This document shows positions 39,700 to 50,262 of a stretch of DNA of 64,000 nt, piece after piece. The notes beneath the pieces were generated by a model that had not been told where the DNA came from, made no database searches, and saw only the letters and a program-made list of their open reading frames with translations. The first letter of the stretch is position 1, and each line of letters opens with the position of its first letter. The position numbers and the translations under genes were made by a program. The stretch comes from Mucilaginibacter rubeus (GTDB lineage: Bacteria; Bacteroidota; Bacteroidia; Sphingobacteriales; Sphingobacteriaceae): assembly GCF_014643835.1 (NCBI RefSeq), contig NZ_BMKD01000003.1, positions 62,001-126,000 on the forward strand, written 5' to 3'.

Positions 39700-40346
39700 G
39701 CCCCAGAGGGGCAAAAGGCTTGTAGAAAAAATAAATGCCCTTCCTTTTACAGCCCCAGAGGGGCTGAACAAAGCCAATAAGTTAATTATTGAGGCAATTT
39801 AAAGATATATTGTTCGTCAAATTCGATATTGAAATCATTTAGCATTTTCCTGTATTCGTCTAAAAATGTAATTTTTCGATGATGCTCTTGCTGGTTTGCT
39901 ATGTAGTTTACCACCTTATCAATTTGTGACCTGCTATTACTAAAAGCTCCATATCCTTCCTGCCACTGAAATCCGCCATTAGCTAATTTTTGTTTATTAA
40001 TCCATTCGGATGAGTCGCTTTTTATGATGCGCACAATTTCAGAAATAGATTGGTTAGGATTTAATCCGATAAGTAAATGCAGATGATCAGGCACATTGTT
40101 GATAGCAATTAGTTTATGCCCCTGGTTTTGAACAATTGAGGTTATATACATTCTTAACCGCTCAGCCCAGGTATCTTCAATTAATGCCATACGATATTTT
40201 ACGGCGAAAACGATGTGGATATATAACTGAGAATAAGTGTTATTACTTGCCATACATTGTGATCAGGTTCGTTAAGTTGAGCACCTCTGGTGCTCTAATC
40301 AAATTTACATTATTTTTCTACAAACCTTTTGCCCCTCTGGGGCAGC
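39700..40346. mobile_element. RAYT/IS200-like transposase gene flanked by palindromic repeats
   Basis: The transposase gene is bracketed by palindromes: GCCCCAGAGGGGC at 39700-39712 and 39752-39764 on one side, and GAGCACCTCTGGTGCTC (40279-40295) and GCCCCTCTGGGGC (40331-40343) on the other. The outer sequences are inverted copies: GCCCCAGAGGGGCAAAAGGC and TTGTAGAAAAA on the left are matched on the right strand-reversed. This is the layout of a REP-associated tyrosine transposase with its BIME repeats. Confidence 0.75.
39786..40253 (-). CDS. Y1 HUH transposase, IS200/IS605 or REP-associated (RAYT) type
   Basis: A 155-residue single-strand DNA transposase. NNVPDHLHLLIGL carries the HUH (His-hydrophobic-His) metal site, and VVNYIANQQEHHRKITF carries the single catalytic tyrosine in the usual position. 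The N-terminal YSQLYIHIVFAVKYRMALI and the central IKSDSSEWINK, WQEGYGAFS are family features. The gene appears intact, with an ATG at 40253. The flanking palindromic repeats and lack of a tnpB partner suggest a domesticated RAYT more than a free IS200, but the two families grade into each other. Confidence 0.85.
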   Translation of the reverse strand: MASNNTYSQLYIHIVFAVKYRMALIEDTWAERLRMYITSIVQNQGHKLIAINNVPDHLHLLIGLNPNQSISEIVRIIKSDSSEWINKQKLANGGFQWQEGYGAFSNSRSQIDKVVNYIANQQEHHRKITFLDEYRKMLNDFNIEFDEQYIFKLPQ

Positions 40347-41425: not shown

Positions 41426-42220
41426 CTATCGGTTTGCTATCGTAGTATACAAAAATACTGCTGATTCTCCCAATATTACCTGGTCGCCTTCACTTAGGGG
41501 GTGGCCAATTTGAGTGGAATTGAGTTTGATCATCTTACCATCAGCCGCGATATGGATCTTGGTTTTATTGCGCGGAGGCACACCGCCTTCATCAGCAAAG
41601 ATCATGAAGCGCTCGCTTTCGGCGTCCCATTCAATATGGGCATGCTGCCTGCTGATGTATTTATTACTTTCGTCCCTGCTCTCTCCCGGAAAAACAAATT
41701 GATTTAGCCTGAACGAGCCATTTTCGGTAACGGACTTTTTATCCCTGCCGATGTAAAGTTTGGGGTCGGTAGCTTTGATCAGGTATTCTTCTTTTTCGGC
41801 CTCACCGCTCAGAATGCGTAAATAGGCTGTAAAGGAAGCTGCATTGTGTGCAACCTGCTTGCGGGTATTCATGATAAAGGCGGCGTCCAGATCAGGGATC
41901 CGTTTTGCTTCTGTCGGGAGCTCATCGGTGAACTCAACATCCAGCGTCCAGTCAGAAGGCAAATTGATGTCAAAGTCGTCGGCTATTTTTTGAACCTCGT
42001 TTTTGAAAAGCGCTTTATCATGTACATAAACCGCGCCCTCATAAATAGGCTTGTCCTCGGCATCGGCAACTATAAAAAGCTTCAGCTCTTTAATATGGCC
42101 GCCTTCTCCACCTTCTATCTTTTGTAACGATTCTTTAATGAAACGTAATATAGCCTCACGTAAGCTTTTTACATCCCAGGGTTGTTTTTCGCCGCTTCTT
42201 TTAAATAAACTGAATGCCAT
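41426..42220 (-). CDS. FHA domain protein, last gene of the kinase/SEDS-PBP operon
   Basis: A 264-residue cytoplasmic protein with a C-terminal forkhead-associated domain (about residues 150-262) that should bind phosphothreonine peptides. It has LYIGRD (157-160 core), the canonical SRQHAHI (190-196), then NKTKIH at 218 and GHPLSEGDQVILGESAVFLY. The N-terminal 130 residues form an alpha+beta region (LREAILRFIKESLQKIEG, LKLFIVADAEDKPIYEGAVYVHDKALFKNEVQKIADDF) that in outline resembles the N-terminal domain of actinobacterial FhaA; this likeness is an inference. It starts 25 bases after the SEDS-PBP stop, so it is co-transcribed with the kinase and phosphatase and is a likely phosphorylation reader or substrate. 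Confidence 0.88.
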   Translation of the reverse strand: MAFSLFKRSGEKQPWDVKSLREAILRFIKESLQKIEGGEGGHIKELKLFIVADAEDKPIYEGAVYVHDKALFKNEVQKIADDFDINLPSDWTLDVEFTDELPTEAKRIPDLDAAFIMNTRKQVAHNAASFTAYLRILSGEAEKEEYLIKATDPKLYIGRDKKSVTENGSFRLNQFVFPGESRDESNKYISRQHAHIEWDAESERFMIFADEGGVPPRNKTKIHIAADGKMIKLNSTQIGHPLSEGDQVILGESAVFLYTTIANR

Positions 42221-42245
42221 TTGCTCTTTCCTTTCTGCTTAAACA

Positions 42246-45200
42246 CTATTCTTCGGTAGTGGTTTCCGTTTCCATGCTTTTTATATAACCTTTTTTCAGC
42301 AGGAAAGGGATCACATGATTGCCGGCCAGGTGTACCGCGTCTGACGATCCGCGGGTTGATTCTACCCGGATACAAACCACCATATAGCCGCTGCCTTTTT
42401 CTTTTGGTGCAAAGAAAACATACCAGCCGTCATTAACACTCTGGTTCCTTACAATACGTTCCGGCGTACCGGTTTTACCTGCTACCTTGATGCCTAATAT
42501 AGGCGTTTTAGGCGCGCTTTGCTCAATCATATATTGTTTTAACAAAGCAGCATAACGCGGATCTTCGGCCAGCTTGATGCCGCTTTTTACAGCCACTGTT
42601 GAATCGGCAATTTTTAGCGCGTACCTGTTGGGCAGTAATATACCGTCATTAGCCACACCTGATACCAGCCTTGCTACCGCTGCGGGGGTAGCAATCAGCT
42701 CGCCCTGCCCCCAGGCCATACCCGAAATACCTTTAGCCCTTGTTTTATGGATATTGTTAGGATCGTACCGTGGTTTGGTATTAAATTCGGTTTTACGCCA
42801 TAAGGCGCGCCATTTATCTTCCTGGGTGGCATTTAATATCGGTTTATTATAATAGTAACCGCCTACGCCATGCAAAAACATCCCTGTTTTAAGGTACAAT
42901 GTTGCCATGTACTCTTCCAGGTGTTCCTGGTTGGCCAGCTTAATAAAATATACGTTGTTTGATTTGGCAATGGCCCGCTCCATGGTGATCATCCCGGTTT
43001 CGTCCGGTTCAATGCCCTTGGTACGGATCCGCTCCTGGGTGCTTACATGATATTGTATTGCAGATGCAGCGATGCCTAATTTATTAAATGCCGACATCGC
43101 CGTTAAAACTTTAGCCGTTGAACCAGGCTGACTGGCATAGGTAAAACCCAGATCGGTAGTGGTTAACCAGGTAGCCAGTTTATTCTGATCGGCCAGTGGC
43201 ATAGTCAGCTGGTCCCAGTTGTGCACAGGAGGCAGCGGGTATTGTGCCGATGTAAGCACATCGCCGGTATTGGATTCCACGATAACTACCGAAACCCTGT
43301 TATCATACAGCGAAGTATCGGAAGCGATAGATTGCTGAATACTGGTTTGCAGATCGGCATCCATGGTAAGCTTTACATCGCGGTTTTTGTTTTTGAAAGC
43401 CTCGACTTCAGGGCCGTTGATATCACTTACCAGCAGGTTGGCCAAAGCGCTGTAGTCTTTTTTAGCTACGGTCATTTCCTTCATTCCGCGGGGCAAAAAC
43501 CTGTCTTCCTGGTAACGTGATGCCTTCACATTATAATTGGTGATGGGCATATGAAACCCCCGAAGCTCGGCGGCATGTTCATACTCGGCAAAATAACCGT
43601 TGGTGCTGCCATTAAATACCCCGGTGTTTTGATCGCCCGTCCAAAAAAACATTTGTTCTTCAAAAGGATAAAACCTGTCCAGGCGCTTGTGCATAGCCGA
43701 ATCCAGGTCATAATGCAGCATACCCGAAGCGCTTAATTTGTTTTTTTGTTTTTCGATAAGCTCGGGTTTGCTGGTAGCCAGGATAAGGCCGTTACGGTCA
43801 TAGATAGTACCTGCTTGCAACCTGTTCATCAATATAGCGATACGCGGGTTATAGCTAAACATCCGCAGGCCGCTTTTATCGGCAACCAAAGCAGGTTTTA
43901 CAACCCATTGCTTATTATCTGTTGTGTAGCGCGATACATTCACCACCAATAATACCACTCCGGCAAGCGCGGCTGCCAATGCAGGTACCAGGTTTTTATC
44001 CTGCTGTTTGGTGATATAATCCATTTGCACAGCGGTTCCCCTTACTGATGAAACCGACAGCAGGAAGCCCGCGGCCAGCAGATTTATTACCAATGATGAG
44101 CCGCCATAACTTTCAAAAGGAAGGGAAACGCCGGATAACGGCAATGCCCCGATGGAGCCGCCCGCAATCAGCAAAAACTGCACAAAAGTACATACGCCTA
44201 TGCCCGCGCTGAGGTAAAACAGCAGGGGCATCCCCGTTTGCCTGCCTATGATGATGGAGCGGTGCAGGTACAACAAAAACAAGATGAACACCGCGGCCAT
44301 GCCAGCCCAGCCAAACTCTTCGCCGATGGATGGCAATATCATATCGGTATGTGCTTCGGGGATAGTTTTGGCAAAGCCCTGCCCAACACCTTGCCCGCTT
44401 ACCCCTCCACTGGCCATGGCCCAAAGTCCGTTAGCTACCTGGTCGCCGCCGTAAACTTCATTATTCCAGGCGTCCTGCCAAATGGCCTTACGCTCAACCA
44501 AACGCTCCACCGGTCCGGGGATAATTTTATCGAGACCGGGGATTTTATCGATGGTTAAAAAAGCAGTGATCACCACGAGCGCCATAATGGCCGATTCACT
44601 CAACCTCCTCCGCCTGAAAAATACTACGCTCCCAAGCGAAAAAAATGTGATGCCGGCGCTAAGCCATATATTATCAAAAAACCAGGTAGTGAGCACAAAT
44701 AGCACCACAAAGCCCGCCATATACAGGAAATCGCCCCGTGAAAAAGAGAACAGGATGATGAACGTAAAACAAATCACCATGGCCGGCCCCAGATCGCCCA
44801 AAACCAAAAACAGCAGCAGGGTGATGATGGTAGCGATAAGCGCGAATGAAAAGAACGACCAGCGCTTGCTCCAACTGGCGTATTGACTGATGAATTTTTC
44901 GTTGGTGGCAAAAAACCCCGCAAGGAAAATAACAATGAGGTATTTTACAATTTCGCTTGGCTGAAAACCCAGCAGGTTAACTTTTACACCGCTACCCTCG
45001 GGGCCGGTACCAAACAAGATGGTTGAAAACAGGATGCCCATAGCAACAATAGCCCATGGCCAGCCGTTGGCGGCGCTCCTGCTCCATTTAAAAACAAGCA
45101 GCCGGTAAAAGCCCGAGTCGGGGTTAAGACGGCGAAGGTTAAATAGCTGAATGATGCAGATCCCCCCTATACCGATGCCCAAATAAACAAGTGTATCTTT

Positions 45201-46322
45201 AGCCAGGAACCTATCGCGCAGCGGGTCCTGCAAGCTTAAAAGCGTAAGGAATGAGATACCGGTAAGCATCATGATCAGGGGTAAAATGATCTGATCGGCA
45301 TCGGGGTACCGGGCGCTTAGTAACAGGTGTACGATGATAAAACCGGCAAAAAAACTGCCAGCTATGATCCAGTACCACATATTAAACTCTTCCTGGTAGC
45401 GCACGATAAAAGCACCCTCTTTTTTCAGGATGTTAAAATCGCGGGTAGAGAGCAGCTTGATACTATGAGGTGCCTGGCTAAATTTAAAGGTTACGTCTTT
45501 GTCCAGTTCGTCAACGCCCTGCGAGCGGCCAAACTCAAAACCCGGCTGCATGGGCAATACCGAAAATGCTTTGCCGGTTGGCAATTTGGCAAATACAAAC
45601 CGCCCTTGCTCATCGGTACGGGCAAAAGCTGTTAGTGACTGCAGTACCTTCTTTTTCTGATCGTTAAGTACATACAGTTTTTTGTATGATGAGGCATTTT
45701 CCGAATAAGAGGTTTTAGCCCCGGTCTCCTCATCGCTGAAAATACTATCACGGGGTAATATCATGGTGAGCTTTACCAGTACACCGGGCACAGGTTCGCC
45801 TTTGTGGGCTATTGTACCTTTAATGCTGTATTCGCCAAGGTTGAGATCGGTTTGGGCGCCCAAAGCAGGAGGATTTTTCAATTCCTGTTCAAAGCGGATA
45901 GAATCATCGCCGGTATAGCCTAAAAGTGTGCGGGAGGTAAGTACGCGTTTCTTGAAAGTTTCACCGCCTTTTTCAAAGGCCTCGTCGGCATTTACGTAGT
46001 ATTTACGTTTGTTAAGTTCGCCGGTATTATCTACCAGGTCGCCGGTTGTTTTACGCGATGCTATTACCGATTCAATGTAATCAACATCCTTCGGATCGTC
46101 AAAATAATACCCTTTTTTAAGCAGCGCCTTTACGTTTTGAGCGGTATTGGGCGAGTTAAGGTTTACGATGGTTCCGTCCTTCAGACGCTTATCAACATCA
46201 GTGAATTTAAGTTGCAATACGCTGAAAAGCTTCACAAATAAAACGGCCAGCAATATGCCTGTAAGCAACAGGAACAGCCGTTCCATTCTCCTGCCGGGTA
46301 CTTTGGGGTTTTCCTGGGCCAT
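42246..46322 (-). CDS. SEDS glycosyltransferase (RodA/FtsW) fused to class B penicillin-binding protein
   Basis: A 1358-residue bifunctional peptidoglycan synthase candidate. In order: a transmembrane helix (15-37); an extracytoplasmic region (40-310) containing a carboxypeptidase-regulatory-like beta domain (YSIKGTIAHKGEPVPGVLVKL..TDEQGRFVFAKLPTG, about 165-255); a SEDS domain (about 315-765) with GFQPSEIVKY, IPEAHTDMILPSIGEEFG (predicted catalytic Asp660) and PFESYGGSS; and a transpeptidase domain (about 835-1345). The latter has AGTIYDRNGLILA, SxxK at Ser1068-Lys1071 (PGSTAK), SNN at 1121-1123 and KTG at 1283-1285. All catalytic motifs are intact. RodA/PBP2 or FtsW/PBP3 normally work as separate paired proteins; here both activities are on one chain. 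It starts three bases after the PP2C stop codon. Confidence 0.93.
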   Translation of the reverse strand: MAQENPKVPGRRMERLFLLLTGILLAVLFVKLFSVLQLKFTDVDKRLKDGTIVNLNSPNTAQNVKALLKKGYYFDDPKDVDYIESVIASRKTTGDLVDNTGELNKRKYYVNADEAFEKGGETFKKRVLTSRTLLGYTGDDSIRFEQELKNPPALGAQTDLNLGEYSIKGTIAHKGEPVPGVLVKLTMILPRDSIFSDEETGAKTSYSENASSYKKLYVLNDQKKKVLQSLTAFARTDEQGRFVFAKLPTGKAFSVLPMQPGFEFGRSQGVDELDKDVTFKFSQAPHSIKLLSTRDFNILKKEGAFIVRYQEEFNMWYWIIAGSFFAGFIIVHLLLSARYPDADQIILPLIMMLTGISFLTLLSLQDPLRDRFLAKDTLVYLGIGIGGICIIQLFNLRRLNPDSGFYRLLVFKWSRSAANGWPWAIVAMGILFSTILFGTGPEGSGVKVNLLGFQPSEIVKYLIVIFLAGFFATNEKFISQYASWSKRWSFFSFALIATIITLLLFLVLGDLGPAMVICFTFIILFSFSRGDFLYMAGFVVLFVLTTWFFDNIWLSAGITFFSLGSVVFFRRRRLSESAIMALVVITAFLTIDKIPGLDKIIPGPVERLVERKAIWQDAWNNEVYGGDQVANGLWAMASGGVSGQGVGQGFAKTIPEAHTDMILPSIGEEFGWAGMAAVFILFLLYLHRSIIIGRQTGMPLLFYLSAGIGVCTFVQFLLIAGGSIGALPLSGVSLPFESYGGSSLVINLLAAGFLLSVSSVRGTAVQMDYITKQQDKNLVPALAAALAGVVLLVVNVSRYTTDNKQWVVKPALVADKSGLRMFSYNPRIAILMNRLQAGTIYDRNGLILATSKPELIEKQKNKLSASGMLHYDLDSAMHKRLDRFYPFEEQMFFWTGDQNTGVFNGSTNGYFAEYEHAAELRGFHMPITNYNVKASRYQEDRFLPRGMKEMTVAKKDYSALANLLVSDINGPEVEAFKNKNRDVKLTMDADLQTSIQQSIASDTSLYDNRVSVVIVESNTGDVLTSAQYPLPPVHNWDQLTMPLADQNKLATWLTTTDLGFTYASQPGSTAKVLTAMSAFNKLGIAASAIQYHVSTQERIRTKGIEPDETGMITMERAIAKSNNVYFIKLANQEHLEEYMATLYLKTGMFLHGVGGYYYNKPILNATQEDKWRALWRKTEFNTKPRYDPNNIHKTRAKGISGMAWGQGELIATPAAVARLVSGVANDGILLPNRYALKIADSTVAVKSGIKLAEDPRYAALLKQYMIEQSAPKTPILGIKVAGKTGTPERIVRNQSVNDGWYVFFAPKEKGSGYMVVCIRVESTRGSSDAVHLAGNHVIPFLLKKGYIKSMETETTTEE

Positions 46323-46325
46323 TTA

Positions 46326-47759
46326 TCAGTGAGTAGCTTTAGTTGGGACAGAATCAGTTTTGAACATGCTGCCAAACAACCTGCCCGAGATGTATTTTTT
46401 ATTAGGGAACATGTACAATGCCTGCACCGGCGTTAAGCAGTTATTGAACTGCACATTTTTTAGCACAAGGGCATCGTTATGTGTTACGATAGCTGTACCA
46501 AAGCCATCAAAAGCAACGCTATCCAGCACTACATATTTGCAGTTGGCAGCCAGCGCGATAGCCGGGCCAGAATAGGTGGAATCTTTTTTAAATACGACGG
46601 CGCCCTTTGTTTTAATATACAGGCTATCCTTATTGATATGCAGCGTATCGCTCAGCACAATAGGCTGCTGAAAATCAGCCGCTGAAAGTAACAACGTATG
46701 GCCTTTTAATTTATTGATAGTATCCTGGAGCTTGAGCTCCACCGCGTTTTTAATATGCTGAGCTACCAACGTATCTGTTTTTTTAGGAACAGCAGCCTGA
46801 TCTGCATTCTTTTTAAACTGCCAGATAAATCCACCCAAAAAAATAAAGCAAAGCAGGGTAAGTACAGCCACTGTGCCGCCATTGCCTTTGGTTTTTACCA
46901 CAGGATCAGGCTCTTCTTGCCTTTTTACCGGGGCGGGTGCAATTGCTTCCGGCTGTTCGGCAACTTTTACAGCAGCAACCGCTGGTTTCGTGGCGCTGTG
47001 TTGCTTGCGCTCCTTATCGTTATGTACCAGTACAACGGTCACATTATCTTTTCCACCACGGTTATTGGCTGCATCAATCAGTTTTTTTCCCTTTTCGGGC
47101 AGGTTATCGCTGCTGGTAAGGATATTGGTGATCTTGCTTTTATCAACAAGGTCGGTTAAGCCGTCGCTGCAAATGAGCAGGATATCGCCCGGCAAAAAGG
47201 GCGAGTTACCTGTCTCTACAAAATCGGGGTCCTGGCCTATTTGCCCGGCAAAACCAAGCGCTTTGTTGATCTCGTTGCGTTTGGGGTGGTCCATGGCCGC
47301 TTCCTCGGTCAGCCGGCCCGAATCTTCCAGGAAGCCCACAAAAGAGTGATCTTTCGAGATCTTGATCAGCGAATAATCTCGCAGCAGGTACAGACGGGTG
47401 TCCCCAACGTGGGCATAATAAAATTTATTGTTGATCATATCAACCACGGCCAGTGTAAGCACACAGGCCATGTTTTCAAGATCTTTGTTCTGTACTTTTT
47501 CGTCGTAGATCCGTTGATTGGCAATGGTAAACGTATTTACCAATAGCGGCACAATATCGCCGGCTATATATTGCAATTGCTCCAGGATGGTGGCGCGGGC
47601 AATTTCGGCAGCTATTTCGCCGCCGGCATAACCGCCAACCCCATCAACCACACAGGCAATGATAAAATTACCATCACCAGATTTTTCGGCAATAAAAACG
47701 TCCTCGTTATTTTGCCTTTGCCTACCGGTATCTGTTATCCCGAAAAAATTATTTGCCAT
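46326..47759 (-). CDS. Transmembrane PP2C Ser/Thr phosphatase with beta-helix-like extracytoplasmic domain
   Basis: A 477-residue membrane phosphatase that should reverse the neighbouring kinase. The PP2C catalytic domain (1-250) has RQNNED, VVDGVGGYAGGE (Asp39), YAHVGDTRLYLL, DHSFVGF, LLICSDGLTDLV (Asp199) and GGKDNVTVV (Asp238), the full metal-site set. A Pro/Ala/Lys-rich linker leads to one transmembrane helix (296-314). About 160 extracytoplasmic residues follow (ILSDTLHINKDSLYIKTKGAVVF..VVLDSVAFDGFGTAIVTHNDALVLKNVQFNNC), with the short repeated strands of a right-handed beta-helix. Mycobacterial PstP has a phosphatase-TM layout, but its outer part is not like this. It follows a 28-residue microprotein gene by four bases and precedes the SEDS-PBP gene by three. 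Confidence 0.92.
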   Translation of the reverse strand: MANNFFGITDTGRQRQNNEDVFIAEKSGDGNFIIACVVDGVGGYAGGEIAAEIARATILEQLQYIAGDIVPLLVNTFTIANQRIYDEKVQNKDLENMACVLTLAVVDMINNKFYYAHVGDTRLYLLRDYSLIKISKDHSFVGFLEDSGRLTEEAAMDHPKRNEINKALGFAGQIGQDPDFVETGNSPFLPGDILLICSDGLTDLVDKSKITNILTSSDNLPEKGKKLIDAANNRGGKDNVTVVLVHNDKERKQHSATKPAVAAVKVAEQPEAIAPAPVKRQEEPDPVVKTKGNGGTVAVLTLLCFIFLGGFIWQFKKNADQAAVPKKTDTLVAQHIKNAVELKLQDTINKLKGHTLLLSAADFQQPIVLSDTLHINKDSLYIKTKGAVVFKKDSTYSGPAIALAANCKYVVLDSVAFDGFGTAIVTHNDALVLKNVQFNNCLTPVQALYMFPNKKYISGRLFGSMFKTDSVPTKATH

Positions 47760-47763
47760 GGTT

Positions 47764-47850
47764 TTAACTGGATTTTTTTATGTCGATAAAATGAGCTACC
47801 AATAACAGCACACATATTGCCAGCAGCCCTATTGATAATACCTGTGACAT
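47764..47850 (-). CDS. 28-residue single-pass membrane microprotein
   Basis: Between the FHA-like gene and the PP2C gene, minus-strand bases 47850-47764 encode MSQVLSIGLLAICVL then LLVAHFIDIKKSS and stop. This is one hydrophobic helix (about residues 4-22) with a short KK-containing tail. Its ATG follows the upstream stop with no gap (TAA-ATG), and its stop is four bases before the PP2C ATG, so it fills the space exactly and looks translationally coupled on both sides. No known family was recognised. It may be a small subunit or regulator of the membrane kinase, phosphatase or synthase. Its length means a chance frame cannot be excluded. Confidence 0.6.
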   Translation of the reverse strand: MSQVLSIGLLAICVLLLVAHFIDIKKSS

Positions 47851-48816
47851 TTATGGTTCGGGTTTAAATATGTTAATACCTACTATGCCATTGAGCAGAA
47901 TCCTGGAGTTGAACGGCAGCTCAACCCATTGCGGCGAGTTCACGTCGCTCCCGGCTACTTCCAGTTCGTTGATCAGGGTGCGCTCGCCAAAAGACGCCAT
48001 GTAAAACTTACCATCGGCTTTATTTAACCTGATGCGCAGGTGGGGGGTGTTCACCCATTCAGACGGCACCTTAAACACGGCCTGCTCGTCCCTTTCCTCA
48101 TCACTGCCCGATACAACAATATCATCATCCTTGATCAGGTACTCCACCTTGCGGCCAACAAACTGCTTATCGGGCATAATGGTTTCCAGCCGGGCCAGTA
48201 CTTTGGTTCCGGGCTTAACTACGTCCTTTTCATTGTGCTGCAGGTCGTTAGCATAAGGCAATTCGTAATAACCTTCGCTGTAATAAGTAAAGCCTTTTAA
48301 AACCTCGTTACTGATATCCAGGGTTTGGGCAACACCCGTTTGGCGCGGAATGAATGTAACCCGCAGGTTCTCATCTTTTTTAGCGCTTGTGCCGGGCAGC
48401 AGTTTGCCTATAAAACCCTTATCGCCGCGTTTATAATCCGGGTGCGATACCAGCCTGAATACCCATTTTGAGCTTGAAGGTTCCACCTTTTTGCCTACTT
48501 CCTGGTGTTCGCGCAGCAGTTCATAGAATTTTTTAACAGATTCATTAACGATAATGCCGAACAGGCCAGAGCGGTTATTTACAAAATCCTGGTAATCTTC
48601 TTCGTTAAAGCTGATGATAAATTCGTGGTAAAAAACTATCCTGTCGGCAAAAGAAAGCTGCTTGATCGATTCCTTGAATTTTTCGATGATGTACAAATAC
48701 ACGTCATCGGGCGTTAGCGCTTTTATTTTTACAGCCTCCTCGTTTACTGGTTTTCCGTTTGGTAAAAACCAGTCCTGAAGGCCTATCCGTTTCCAAAATG
48801 TTGATTTAGGTTCCAT
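47851..48816 (-). CDS. FHA-like protein with FhaA-like N-terminal region
   Basis: A 321-residue cytoplasmic protein with no confident family match by eye. The C-terminal part (about 225-318) reads like a degenerate forkhead-associated domain: VEYLIKDDDIVVSGSDEE, then HLRIRLNKADGKFYMASFGERTLIN and SRILLNGIVGINIF follow the FHA strand order, but the phosphothreonine-binding Ser and Asn are replaced. The N-terminal half (about 35-140: DRIVFYHEFIISFNEEDYQDFV, FYELLREHQEVGKKVEPSSSKWVFRLVS) has the helix-strand-helix-strand pattern of the DUF3662/FhaA N-terminal domain. Both statements are inference from pattern. It lies 18 bases after the kinase stop and directly abuts the microprotein start. Confidence 0.75.
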   Translation of the reverse strand: MEPKSTFWKRIGLQDWFLPNGKPVNEEAVKIKALTPDDVYLYIIEKFKESIKQLSFADRIVFYHEFIISFNEEDYQDFVNNRSGLFGIIVNESVKKFYELLREHQEVGKKVEPSSSKWVFRLVSHPDYKRGDKGFIGKLLPGTSAKKDENLRVTFIPRQTGVAQTLDISNEVLKGFTYYSEGYYELPYANDLQHNEKDVVKPGTKVLARLETIMPDKQFVGRKVEYLIKDDDIVVSGSDEERDEQAVFKVPSEWVNTPHLRIRLNKADGKFYMASFGERTLINELEVAGSDVNSPQWVELPFNSRILLNGIVGINIFKPEP

Positions 48817-48834
48817 TCTGTATTTGCTAAATCA

Positions 48835-50262
48835 TTAAAAGTTTAAGTTAGAGGTATCCGCTTTTTTCACACTATCGCGATAAAACTGGGTATCTTCCTT
48901 TTGTTGTTTTGCCCGTTGTATGTTACGCAATATCGAATCGGCGGTTGAATCAACTTCCGGTGGAATATTGCTCTCATCTTTGTAATCACTGGCCTTAGGC
49001 TGCTGTACAGAGTCTTTTTTTTGGGGTGGGATAATTTTACTACTTGCAGCCGAATCGGTTGCCTTTTTTGAAGGTTTAAACAGCCTGCTAACCACCCCAT
49101 TATAAATACGCCCGCCAAACTTATCCATCACCACTGCCGAAAACACGGTAAAACCGCAAAGCAATATTATGAACATAATGAAGATCGGCTTTGACATGCG
49201 CACGGCTTTGCTATCAGCAGGCTCGTTGCTAACTACCTGTGCCGGTTGCTTGTTCTCGTTTTCCTGGTAATATAGCACCAGCCCCTGCAGTCGTTCATTT
49301 TCCTTCAATAAAACTTCGGTGTTCCACGATTCATCGGGGTGCGTTGGACTGATAGCGCCGATACTGCCCTGCATCAAAGCTTCCTGCAATTCAATGCCGT
49401 TGGCATACCGGTTATTGATGTCTTTTTGCAGACATTTAGCTACAATCTGTAATAACCAGGCCGGAACCTGCATCTGCATTTCCTTTTTCTCGTCCGACCA
49501 GCTTTCGGGCAGGTTTTTGCGGCGCAGCTCCATTACATCAGGTATCTCCGACTCCATGTGGGCCAGCATCACGGCGTTGCGTGCTGTTTCGCCATTATCT
49601 TTTAGCGGGAAAGGCACCTGCCCGCCAATCAATTCATACAGGATGATGCCGTAGCTGTACACATCTGTTTGGAAATACATCAGGCCTTCATTTTGCTCGG
49701 GCGCCATAAATTCAATAGCGCCCGCATGACGGATACTGGTACGGCGCTGATCATCAGACATGGCCGAAAGACCAAAATCAAGCAGCACGTAGTTACCGGT
49801 ATGTACGTTGAACTTTACATTGTTGCTTTTGATGTCGCCGTGCTTTACCGAAACTTTGTGACAGTGTGATAACGCATTTGCCAGCTGATCGGCCAGTTTA
49901 ATGATCTCTTTAATGCTGAAGATAGCCTCATGCGGTGGTTTCAGCAGGTCTTCCAGATCGGGGCCATCAATATATTCCATTTCGATAAACGGGAACGAAC
50001 CACTTTCGGTAATGCCCGAATTAAGAATCTTAACCACATTTGGGTTAGGCTCTTCGTTTACCTTTTTTAGTTTTTCGACCTCGTTCTGGAAATTGCGAAA
50101 ATTTTTATCGTCGGTGCTTTCGGTATGAATAGGAGTGGGCAGGAGCTTTACCGCTGTGATAATAGGCCCATAGCGGCGACCTTTATAAACAGAGCCCTGA
50201 CCGCCCGTTCGTAAAGCCCCCATGTTTTCCAAACCTTCGGTAATAGTAAATACTTTGCTCAT
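48835..50262 (-). CDS. Transmembrane Ser/Thr protein kinase, first gene of the operon
   Basis: A 475-residue Hanks-type kinase. The kinase domain (about 10-300) has the glycine loop LRTGGQGSVYKG, AVKLL (Lys39), HGDIKSNNVKF catalytic loop (Asp143, Asn148), LLDFGLS (Asp162) and FMAPEQ. The HRD arginine is replaced by Gly, so it is a non-RD kinase and may not need activation-loop phosphorylation. The activation segment contains RRTSIR. One transmembrane helix (about 358-378) is followed by an extracytoplasmic tail of about 95 residues rich in Ser, Lys, Pro and Asp with no PASTA repeats. It heads the operon with the FHA-like, phosphatase and peptidoglycan synthase genes, which are its likely targets. 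Two possible -7-like sequences upstream are weak. Confidence 0.92.
   Translation of the reverse strand: MSKVFTITEGLENMGALRTGGQGSVYKGRRYGPIITAVKLLPTPIHTESTDDKNFRNFQNEVEKLKKVNEEPNPNVVKILNSGITESGSFPFIEMEYIDGPDLEDLLKPPHEAIFSIKEIIKLADQLANALSHCHKVSVKHGDIKSNNVKFNVHTGNYVLLDFGLSAMSDDQRRTSIRHAGAIEFMAPEQNEGLMYFQTDVYSYGIILYELIGGQVPFPLKDNGETARNAVMLAHMESEIPDVMELRRKNLPESWSDEKKEMQMQVPAWLLQIVAKCLQKDINNRYANGIELQEALMQGSIGAISPTHPDESWNTEVLLKENERLQGLVLYYQENENKQPAQVVSNEPADSKAVRMSKPIFIMFIILLCGFTVFSAVVMDKFGGRIYNGVVSRLFKPSKKATDSAASSKIIPPQKKDSVQQPKASDYKDESNIPPEVDSTADSILRNIQRAKQQKEDTQFYRDSVKKADTSNLNF

Follow-up and report, generated by a model that had tools for sequence, protein, structure and literature searches.

The stretch of DNA analysed here (the window, 64,000 nucleotides), which is placed in Mucilaginibacter by its named relatives, carries on its minus strand, from 50262 to 41426, a compact run of six genes with intergenic gaps of 18, 0, 4, 3 and 25 bases (Table 1). 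A sequence-only reading of the same DNA had described six consecutive minus-strand genes for a membrane kinase, an FHA-like protein (here P321), a membrane microprotein, a membrane PP2C phosphatase, a SEDS-PBP fusion and an FHA protein, and this gene set was confirmed by the open reading frames and by Pfam. In the nearest genome (G001), which has 45% of sampled words in common with the window, the five larger proteins are 97-99% identical to those of the window and are encoded in the same order. Beside the cluster, at 39786-40253 on the minus strand, a 155-aa ORF lies inside a 921-base gap, the counterpart of which in G001 (L013:12681-12970) is only 290 bases long. By its likeness this ORF may be an IS200-type transposase, and the longer gap probably reflects a recent insertion.

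Table 1. The cluster genes and one domain of the fusion, with positions in the window
Feature	Position	Strand	Basis
Transmembrane Ser/Thr kinase, 475 aa, non-RD (HGD), without PASTA; TM 353-383	48835..50262	-	Pfam Pkinase 2e-35; TM by hydropathy
P321, 321 aa: N-terminal domain of uncertain kinship (FhaA_N-like?) and degenerate FHA fold from residue 205	47851..48816	-	
Microprotein, 28 aa, single-pass membrane, MSQ-LSIGLL...HF-DIK	47764..47850	-	ORF
Transmembrane PP2C phosphatase, 477 aa; TM 293-316; tail extracytoplasmic, weakly like a beta-helix	46326..47759	-	Pfam
SEDS-PBP fusion, 1358 aa: TM1, periplasmic domain, TM2, SEDS core, TM, class B PBP	42246..46322	-	Pfam; TM scan
Periplasmic transthyretin-like (CarboxypepD_reg-type) domain, TM1-TM2 loop of the fusion	45381..46217	-	CarboxypepD_reg match, window copy below cut-off
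FHA protein, cytoplasmic, 264 aa, phosphothreonine pocket kept	41426..42220	-	FHA match; without TM

The earlier claim of one fused synthase also holds, since Pfam matches and invariant motifs put a SEDS part and a class B PBP part in the same 1358-aa chain. D660, S1068-x-x-K1071, S1121-N-N1123 and K1283-T/S-G1285 are invariant in 14 rows, and in a wider set the SEDS HTDM motif, which contains the conserved extracytoplasmic Asp (D660 in the window), was present in 15/15 fusions. This Asp of SEDS glycosyltransferases corresponds to D262 of E. coli RodA and has a catalytic role. Four distant fusions did not fit a narrow SxN pattern, but neither did the three FtsI rows and the row from Monoglobus. 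Hydropathy scans of 5 fusions, 4 actinobacterial RodA proteins and 6 others, including that of Monoglobus, showed that the fusions and the actinobacterial RodA proteins have in common two additional TM helices N-terminal to the SEDS core, and in the window fusion these two helices are separated by about 270 residues. The periplasmic stretch matches CarboxypepD_reg, a transthyretin-like fold, at E <= 0.1 in 20/20 rows (best 9.2e-12), the window copy (7e-4) lying below the family cut-off. A 1686-aa frame with a SEDS match in another genome (G033) was considered as a further fusion and rejected, the RodA frame in the fetched stretch being an ordinary one of 466 aa.

The active sites of the signalling enzymes of the cluster are intact. 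Thirteen positions of the kinase catalytic core, including Lys39, Asp143 and Asp162, are identical in all 115 kinases compared (that of the window and 114 others), and in every one of them HGD replaces HRD, so that the kinases are non-RD. A Pfam scan of the window kinase found no PASTA domain, in agreement with what had been read from the sequence. Of 81 phosphatases, 79-80 retain the PP2C core residues (the remainder are gaps) and all 81 have a TM helix; Pfam gave a PP2C match in 19/19 phosphatase rows. The sequence-only reading had named broken catalytic sites in most homologues as the outcome that would tell against it, and these same counts (115/115 kinases, 79-80/81 phosphatases) show the sites to be whole; degenerate enzymes are ruled out by the intact kinase, PP2C, SEDS and PBP motifs. 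Where a beta-helix-like sensor had been ascribed to the phosphatase, there is an extracytoplasmic tail whose likeness to a beta-helix is weak. A rule that required the LS/LT and HF marks recognised an ORF 28-33 residues long (pattern MSQ-LSIGLL...HF-DIKNS) in 71 of 81 loci (the best 80 of 253 together with the window); of the ten misses two are without the gene pair, and the copy in L077 is visible otherwise. In 69 copies the 17-codon stretch that separates these marks gave a pN/pS of 0.33 and third codon positions vary most, which favours a conserved coding gene, and the 28-aa microprotein of the window looks genuinely coding.

The two FHA-type proteins differ in the state of their phosphothreonine pocket. 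The 264-aa FHA protein, in which hydropathy gave no TM helix, has an FHA match at E <= 0.1 in 24/24 rows and keeps the pocket residues G158, R159, S190, R191 and H193 (Gly-Arg and Ser-Arg-x-His) in all 24, whereas in P321 the Gly-Arg and Ser-Arg are not kept in the eight rows shown. A fold search with a model of P321 found an FHA fold, the matches being nearly all to FHA domains, with the N-terminal half barely probed. Pfam found FhaA_N in 0/26 rows of the P321 family, and with hhalign the N-terminal domain of P321 reached a probability of 34% when compared with a combined profile of FhaA_N; the rows of family f34 (from another class) by themselves gave 8.8% and the actinobacterial rows by themselves 1.6%. 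Comparisons with one actinobacterial FhaA were all weak (3.5% for the P321 family, 25.8% for the FHA family and 25.3% for the f34 FhaA-type family), as were those of P321 with the FHA family (15.4%, or 0.3% for the N-terminal domains alone), and sequence searches of solved structures with the P321 and FHA families gave a best E of only 0.41.

A scan of named-species genomes yielded 253 stretches that encode relatives, and the best 80 of these were read as loci. They come from Mucilaginibacter, Pedobacter, Hufsiella, Daejeonella, Paradesertivirga, Ferruginibacter, Paraflavisolibacter and a few unclassified Bacteroidetes. The gene-neighbourhood search that had been proposed for Bacteroidota genomes gave the core order P321-PP2C-fusion-FHA in 75 of these best 80 loci, the other five being cut by contig ends, and within those 75 a kinase adjoins the core in 73, the other two being cut by contig starts. 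Neighbouring cluster genes in the same best 80 of 253 are separated by a median of 25 bases (n=346), with an exception in L114, where 4247 bases separate the FHA gene from the fusion. A chance run of genes is ruled out by the keeping of this order across relatives. Among the fetched loci of the same genus, kinase-P321-PP2C-fusion-FHA was found in 14/15, the fifteenth being a contig-start cut. A kinase directly 3' of the FHA gene was observed in 48/80 of the named loci (best 80 of 253; L040-L119) and 7/15 of the same-genus loci (L013-L027), where it is a second kinase, and is not present in the window.

In G308, where the fusion is 33% identical to that of the window, the order is kinase-P321-PP2C-fusion-FHA-kinase, and in G288 and G410 it is P321-PP2C-kinase-kinase-fusion up to the end of the stretch read. 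Across 395 genomes of the phylum P321 was matched in 9 and the periplasmic domain of the fusion in 18 (13 strong, with E under 1e-10, and 5 near the limit), and among genomes that belong to the same class but to other families the fusion was found in 0/16.

In five genomes, chosen for having the fusion, PF01098 found FtsW, RodA and the fusion in all five. Both G001 and G308 have an mreB-mreC-mreD-pbp2-rodA locus and an ftsI-mur-ftsW-murG-murC cluster, the neighbouring ORFs of which were named by eye from the sequence. The separate elongation and division loci that the sequence-only reading suggested looking for were thus found in the nearest genome, G001, as a stand-in for the window's own, and since they are ordinary there the fusion represents a third SEDS-PBP pair.

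We consider, with a probability of about 0.68, that the product of the cluster is a peptidoglycan synthase, the third after RodA-PBP2 and FtsW-FtsI, which would work beside these two and carry its own phospho-control. The fusion combines in one chain a SEDS polymerase of the actinobacterial-cluster type, two extra N-terminal helices with a transthyretin-like periplasmic domain between them, and a terminal class B PBP, and its intact catalytic motifs suggest that it polymerises lipid II and cross-links the glycan. The membrane kinase may phosphorylate threonines of the fusion, of itself or of a protein that supplies precursors; the membrane PP2C would undo this. By analogy with mycobacteria, the intact FHA protein would read the phosphothreonine and recruit, place or gate (switch) the fused synthase; P321, with its degenerate FHA domain, is probably a phosphate-independent scaffold. 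The microprotein may be a small membrane subunit of the synthase complex, and two candidates for a periplasmic sensor are the transthyretin-like domain and the tail of the phosphatase. It is by the same analogy that we infer control of wall synthesis by this cluster through phosphorylation.

The fusion is full-length in 15 of 25 genomes of the same genus and partial in 1 more; the other 9, of which 6 are at least 92% complete and 3 are at 61-83%, have no full-length fusion, which is therefore not essential to the group. Relatives of the set also occur together on a 137-kb plasmid of Spirosoma oryzicola (L195:6432-16988), in the order FHA-PP2C-kinase-kinase-fusion-FHA and with a fusion 39.6% identical to that of the window. 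This full or partial presence in only 16/25 genomes, together with the plasmid, would fit a cluster that is an accessory and sometimes mobile trait which serves a single condition, such as remodelling of the wall during beta-lactam or osmotic stress, and has no role in normal growth. Against it, the cluster is kept in many Mucilaginibacter and Pedobacter species, and the annotated genes of the 28-kb stretch from the plasmid, for which the gene table is incomplete, include no mobility gene. A restricted use of this kind is a tentative possibility, and the best placed of the alternatives; it is compatible with a third synthase and would narrow only the time at which that synthase is used.

A different view would be that the kinase, the phosphatase and the FHA proteins steer something else, for instance general envelope-stress signalling, with the synthase merely a co-expressed output whose polymerisation is not under phospho-control. 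The number and place of the kinases differ among relatives (of the best 80 of 253 loci, 33 have kinases on both sides, 26 only upstream and 15 only downstream, and in the remaining 6, which are cut, none was seen), and the fusion of family f34 is flanked by two FHA-type proteins, with neither kinase nor PP2C beside it, both of which fit this view. However, the gene order persists across long divergence, in varied surroundings and on a plasmid, and the SEDS proteins among which the SEDS part falls have neighbours of the FHA kind, or of the FHA and kinase kinds, elsewhere; we regard signalling directed elsewhere as unlikely.

The origin of the SEDS part was addressed by phylogeny. In a 41-row SEDS tree, 11 fusions, 5 actinobacterial RodA proteins and 1 clostridial SEDS protein were split from the 24 other rows with support of 100/99, and the same support was obtained with well-filled columns and the clostridial row omitted (columns filled in <80% of rows were dropped, and the N-terminal trim matched 6/11 fusion rows). 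Three of the actinobacterial RodA proteins were read inside the actinobacterial cluster, in records listed as plasmids, that of Tsukamurella from its annotation and those of Nonomuraea and Nocardia from ORFs named by eye; the Embleya and Streptomyces rows were picked by similarity alone, and the other rows were hand-picked from plasmid-collection matches, of which there were more than those used. Forcing the fusions to group with Bacteroidota RodA gave a tree 43.8 log units worse, which was rejected (p-AU 0.01), and on this basis a duplicate of Bacteroidota RodA was rejected as the source of the SEDS part. Grouping with Bacteroidota FtsW was 29.3 log units worse and marginally rejected (p-AU 0.043); the groups for both tests were named after the first tree was known. 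In a 22-row PBP tree the fusion PBP is left apart and without a settled place, and its grouping with neither Bacteroidota PBP2 (p 0.148) nor FtsI (p 0.083) was rejected. That a duplicated Bacteroidota RodA or FtsW was instead fused to a PBP and gathered common signalling genes, so that the likeness to the actinobacterial cluster is convergent, would suit a PBP half that is not placed with PbpA, a window kinase without PASTA and the long branches in the SEDS trees, but it is the least probable of the alternatives in view of the SEDS split, the two rejected groupings, the shared N-terminal helices and the protein with FhaA_N (9.7e-6, over the cut-off) and FHA that adjoins the distant f34 fusion.

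The kinship with the actinobacterial kinase-phosphatase-FHA-RodA-PbpA cluster on which the sequence-only reading was built is upheld by the SEDS split, the extra helices and the SEDS-then-PBP order, and the idea that it is more than analogy, with the fused SEDS part akin to the RodA of the pstP cluster, is supported by these comparisons. The fhaA-fhaB-pstP-rodA-pbpA-pknA-pknB cluster likewise has a membrane PP2C, a membrane kinase and two FHA-type proteins. It differs in that SEDS and PBP are fused in Bacteroidota, with a transthyretin-like insert, the Bacteroidota kinases are non-RD, with PASTA absent from the window copy, and the Bacteroidota set includes a degenerate FHA protein and a microprotein; moreover, genomes related to the window also carry mreBCD/RodA-PBP2. 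FhaB has an N-terminal TM helix followed by FHA, and the Tsukamurella FhaB-type ORF does begin with a hydrophobic stretch, whereas the 264-aa Bacteroidota FHA protein is without a TM helix. The Bacteroidota cluster is related to the actinobacterial one by its SEDS part but departs from it in PASTA and FhaB-type features. In mycobacteria, wall growth is controlled by proteins of the actinobacterial cluster (PMC6554272, PMC11898655); phosphorylated MviN and CwlM are reported ligands of FhaA, and pstP is co-transcribed with rodA and pbpA (PMC11898655, PMC6554272).

A clostridial locus, FHA-SEDS-PBP of Monoglobus pectinilyticus, resembles the Bacteroidota set in having SEDS then PBP, an FHA neighbour and a SEDS protein that groups with the fusions and actinobacterial RodA, but there SEDS and PBP are unfused and neither kinase nor PP2C is annotated in the 5.4-kb stretch. 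RodA-PBP2 and FtsW-FtsI would be expected to share the SEDS and class B PBP chemistry of the fusion, given the catalytic Asp and the SxxK and KTG motifs, but they are encoded by separate genes in loci of their own in the same genomes (G001 and G308) and fall in other SEDS clades. Single-ORF SEDS-PBP fusions have already been mentioned (PMC10449877), likewise with both activities in one chain; the passage concerned names neither organisms nor a signalling cluster. Searches of the literature, confined to open-licence papers, found no account of such a Bacteroidota cluster among the papers listed. Whether there is a third, FHA-linked SEDS lineage common to Actinobacteria, to one clostridium or more and to two or more classes of Bacteroidota, which in the Gram-negative Bacteroidota has become a single-chain polymerase-transpeptidase with a periplasmic sensor, a microprotein subunit and a phospho-switch beside the normal elongasome and divisome, is in our estimation evenly balanced.

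Gram-positive bacteria and mycobacteria are the best-known cases of phospho-control of wall synthesis. Because the Gram-negative soil bacteria concerned possess ordinary RodA and FtsW as well, the role of a related and self-contained cluster could be tested in them in cells that stay alive. A natural one-chain SEDS-PBP is also convenient for structural work and enzyme studies, and in the conserved microprotein there is a ready candidate for a regulator.

Two further observations were made in the collections searched. Four plasmid-collection records (L196, L197, L210 and L211) resemble actinobacterial chromosomes or chromosome pieces, because the wall-growth cluster is present in them. G171 encodes a second, deeply branching SEDS-PBP fusion of 1307 aa (L176:5165-9088), with a kinase-like ORF about 4 kb before it, and distant from this fusion another FhaA_N-type protein adjoins a PP2C (L177:3547-5821).
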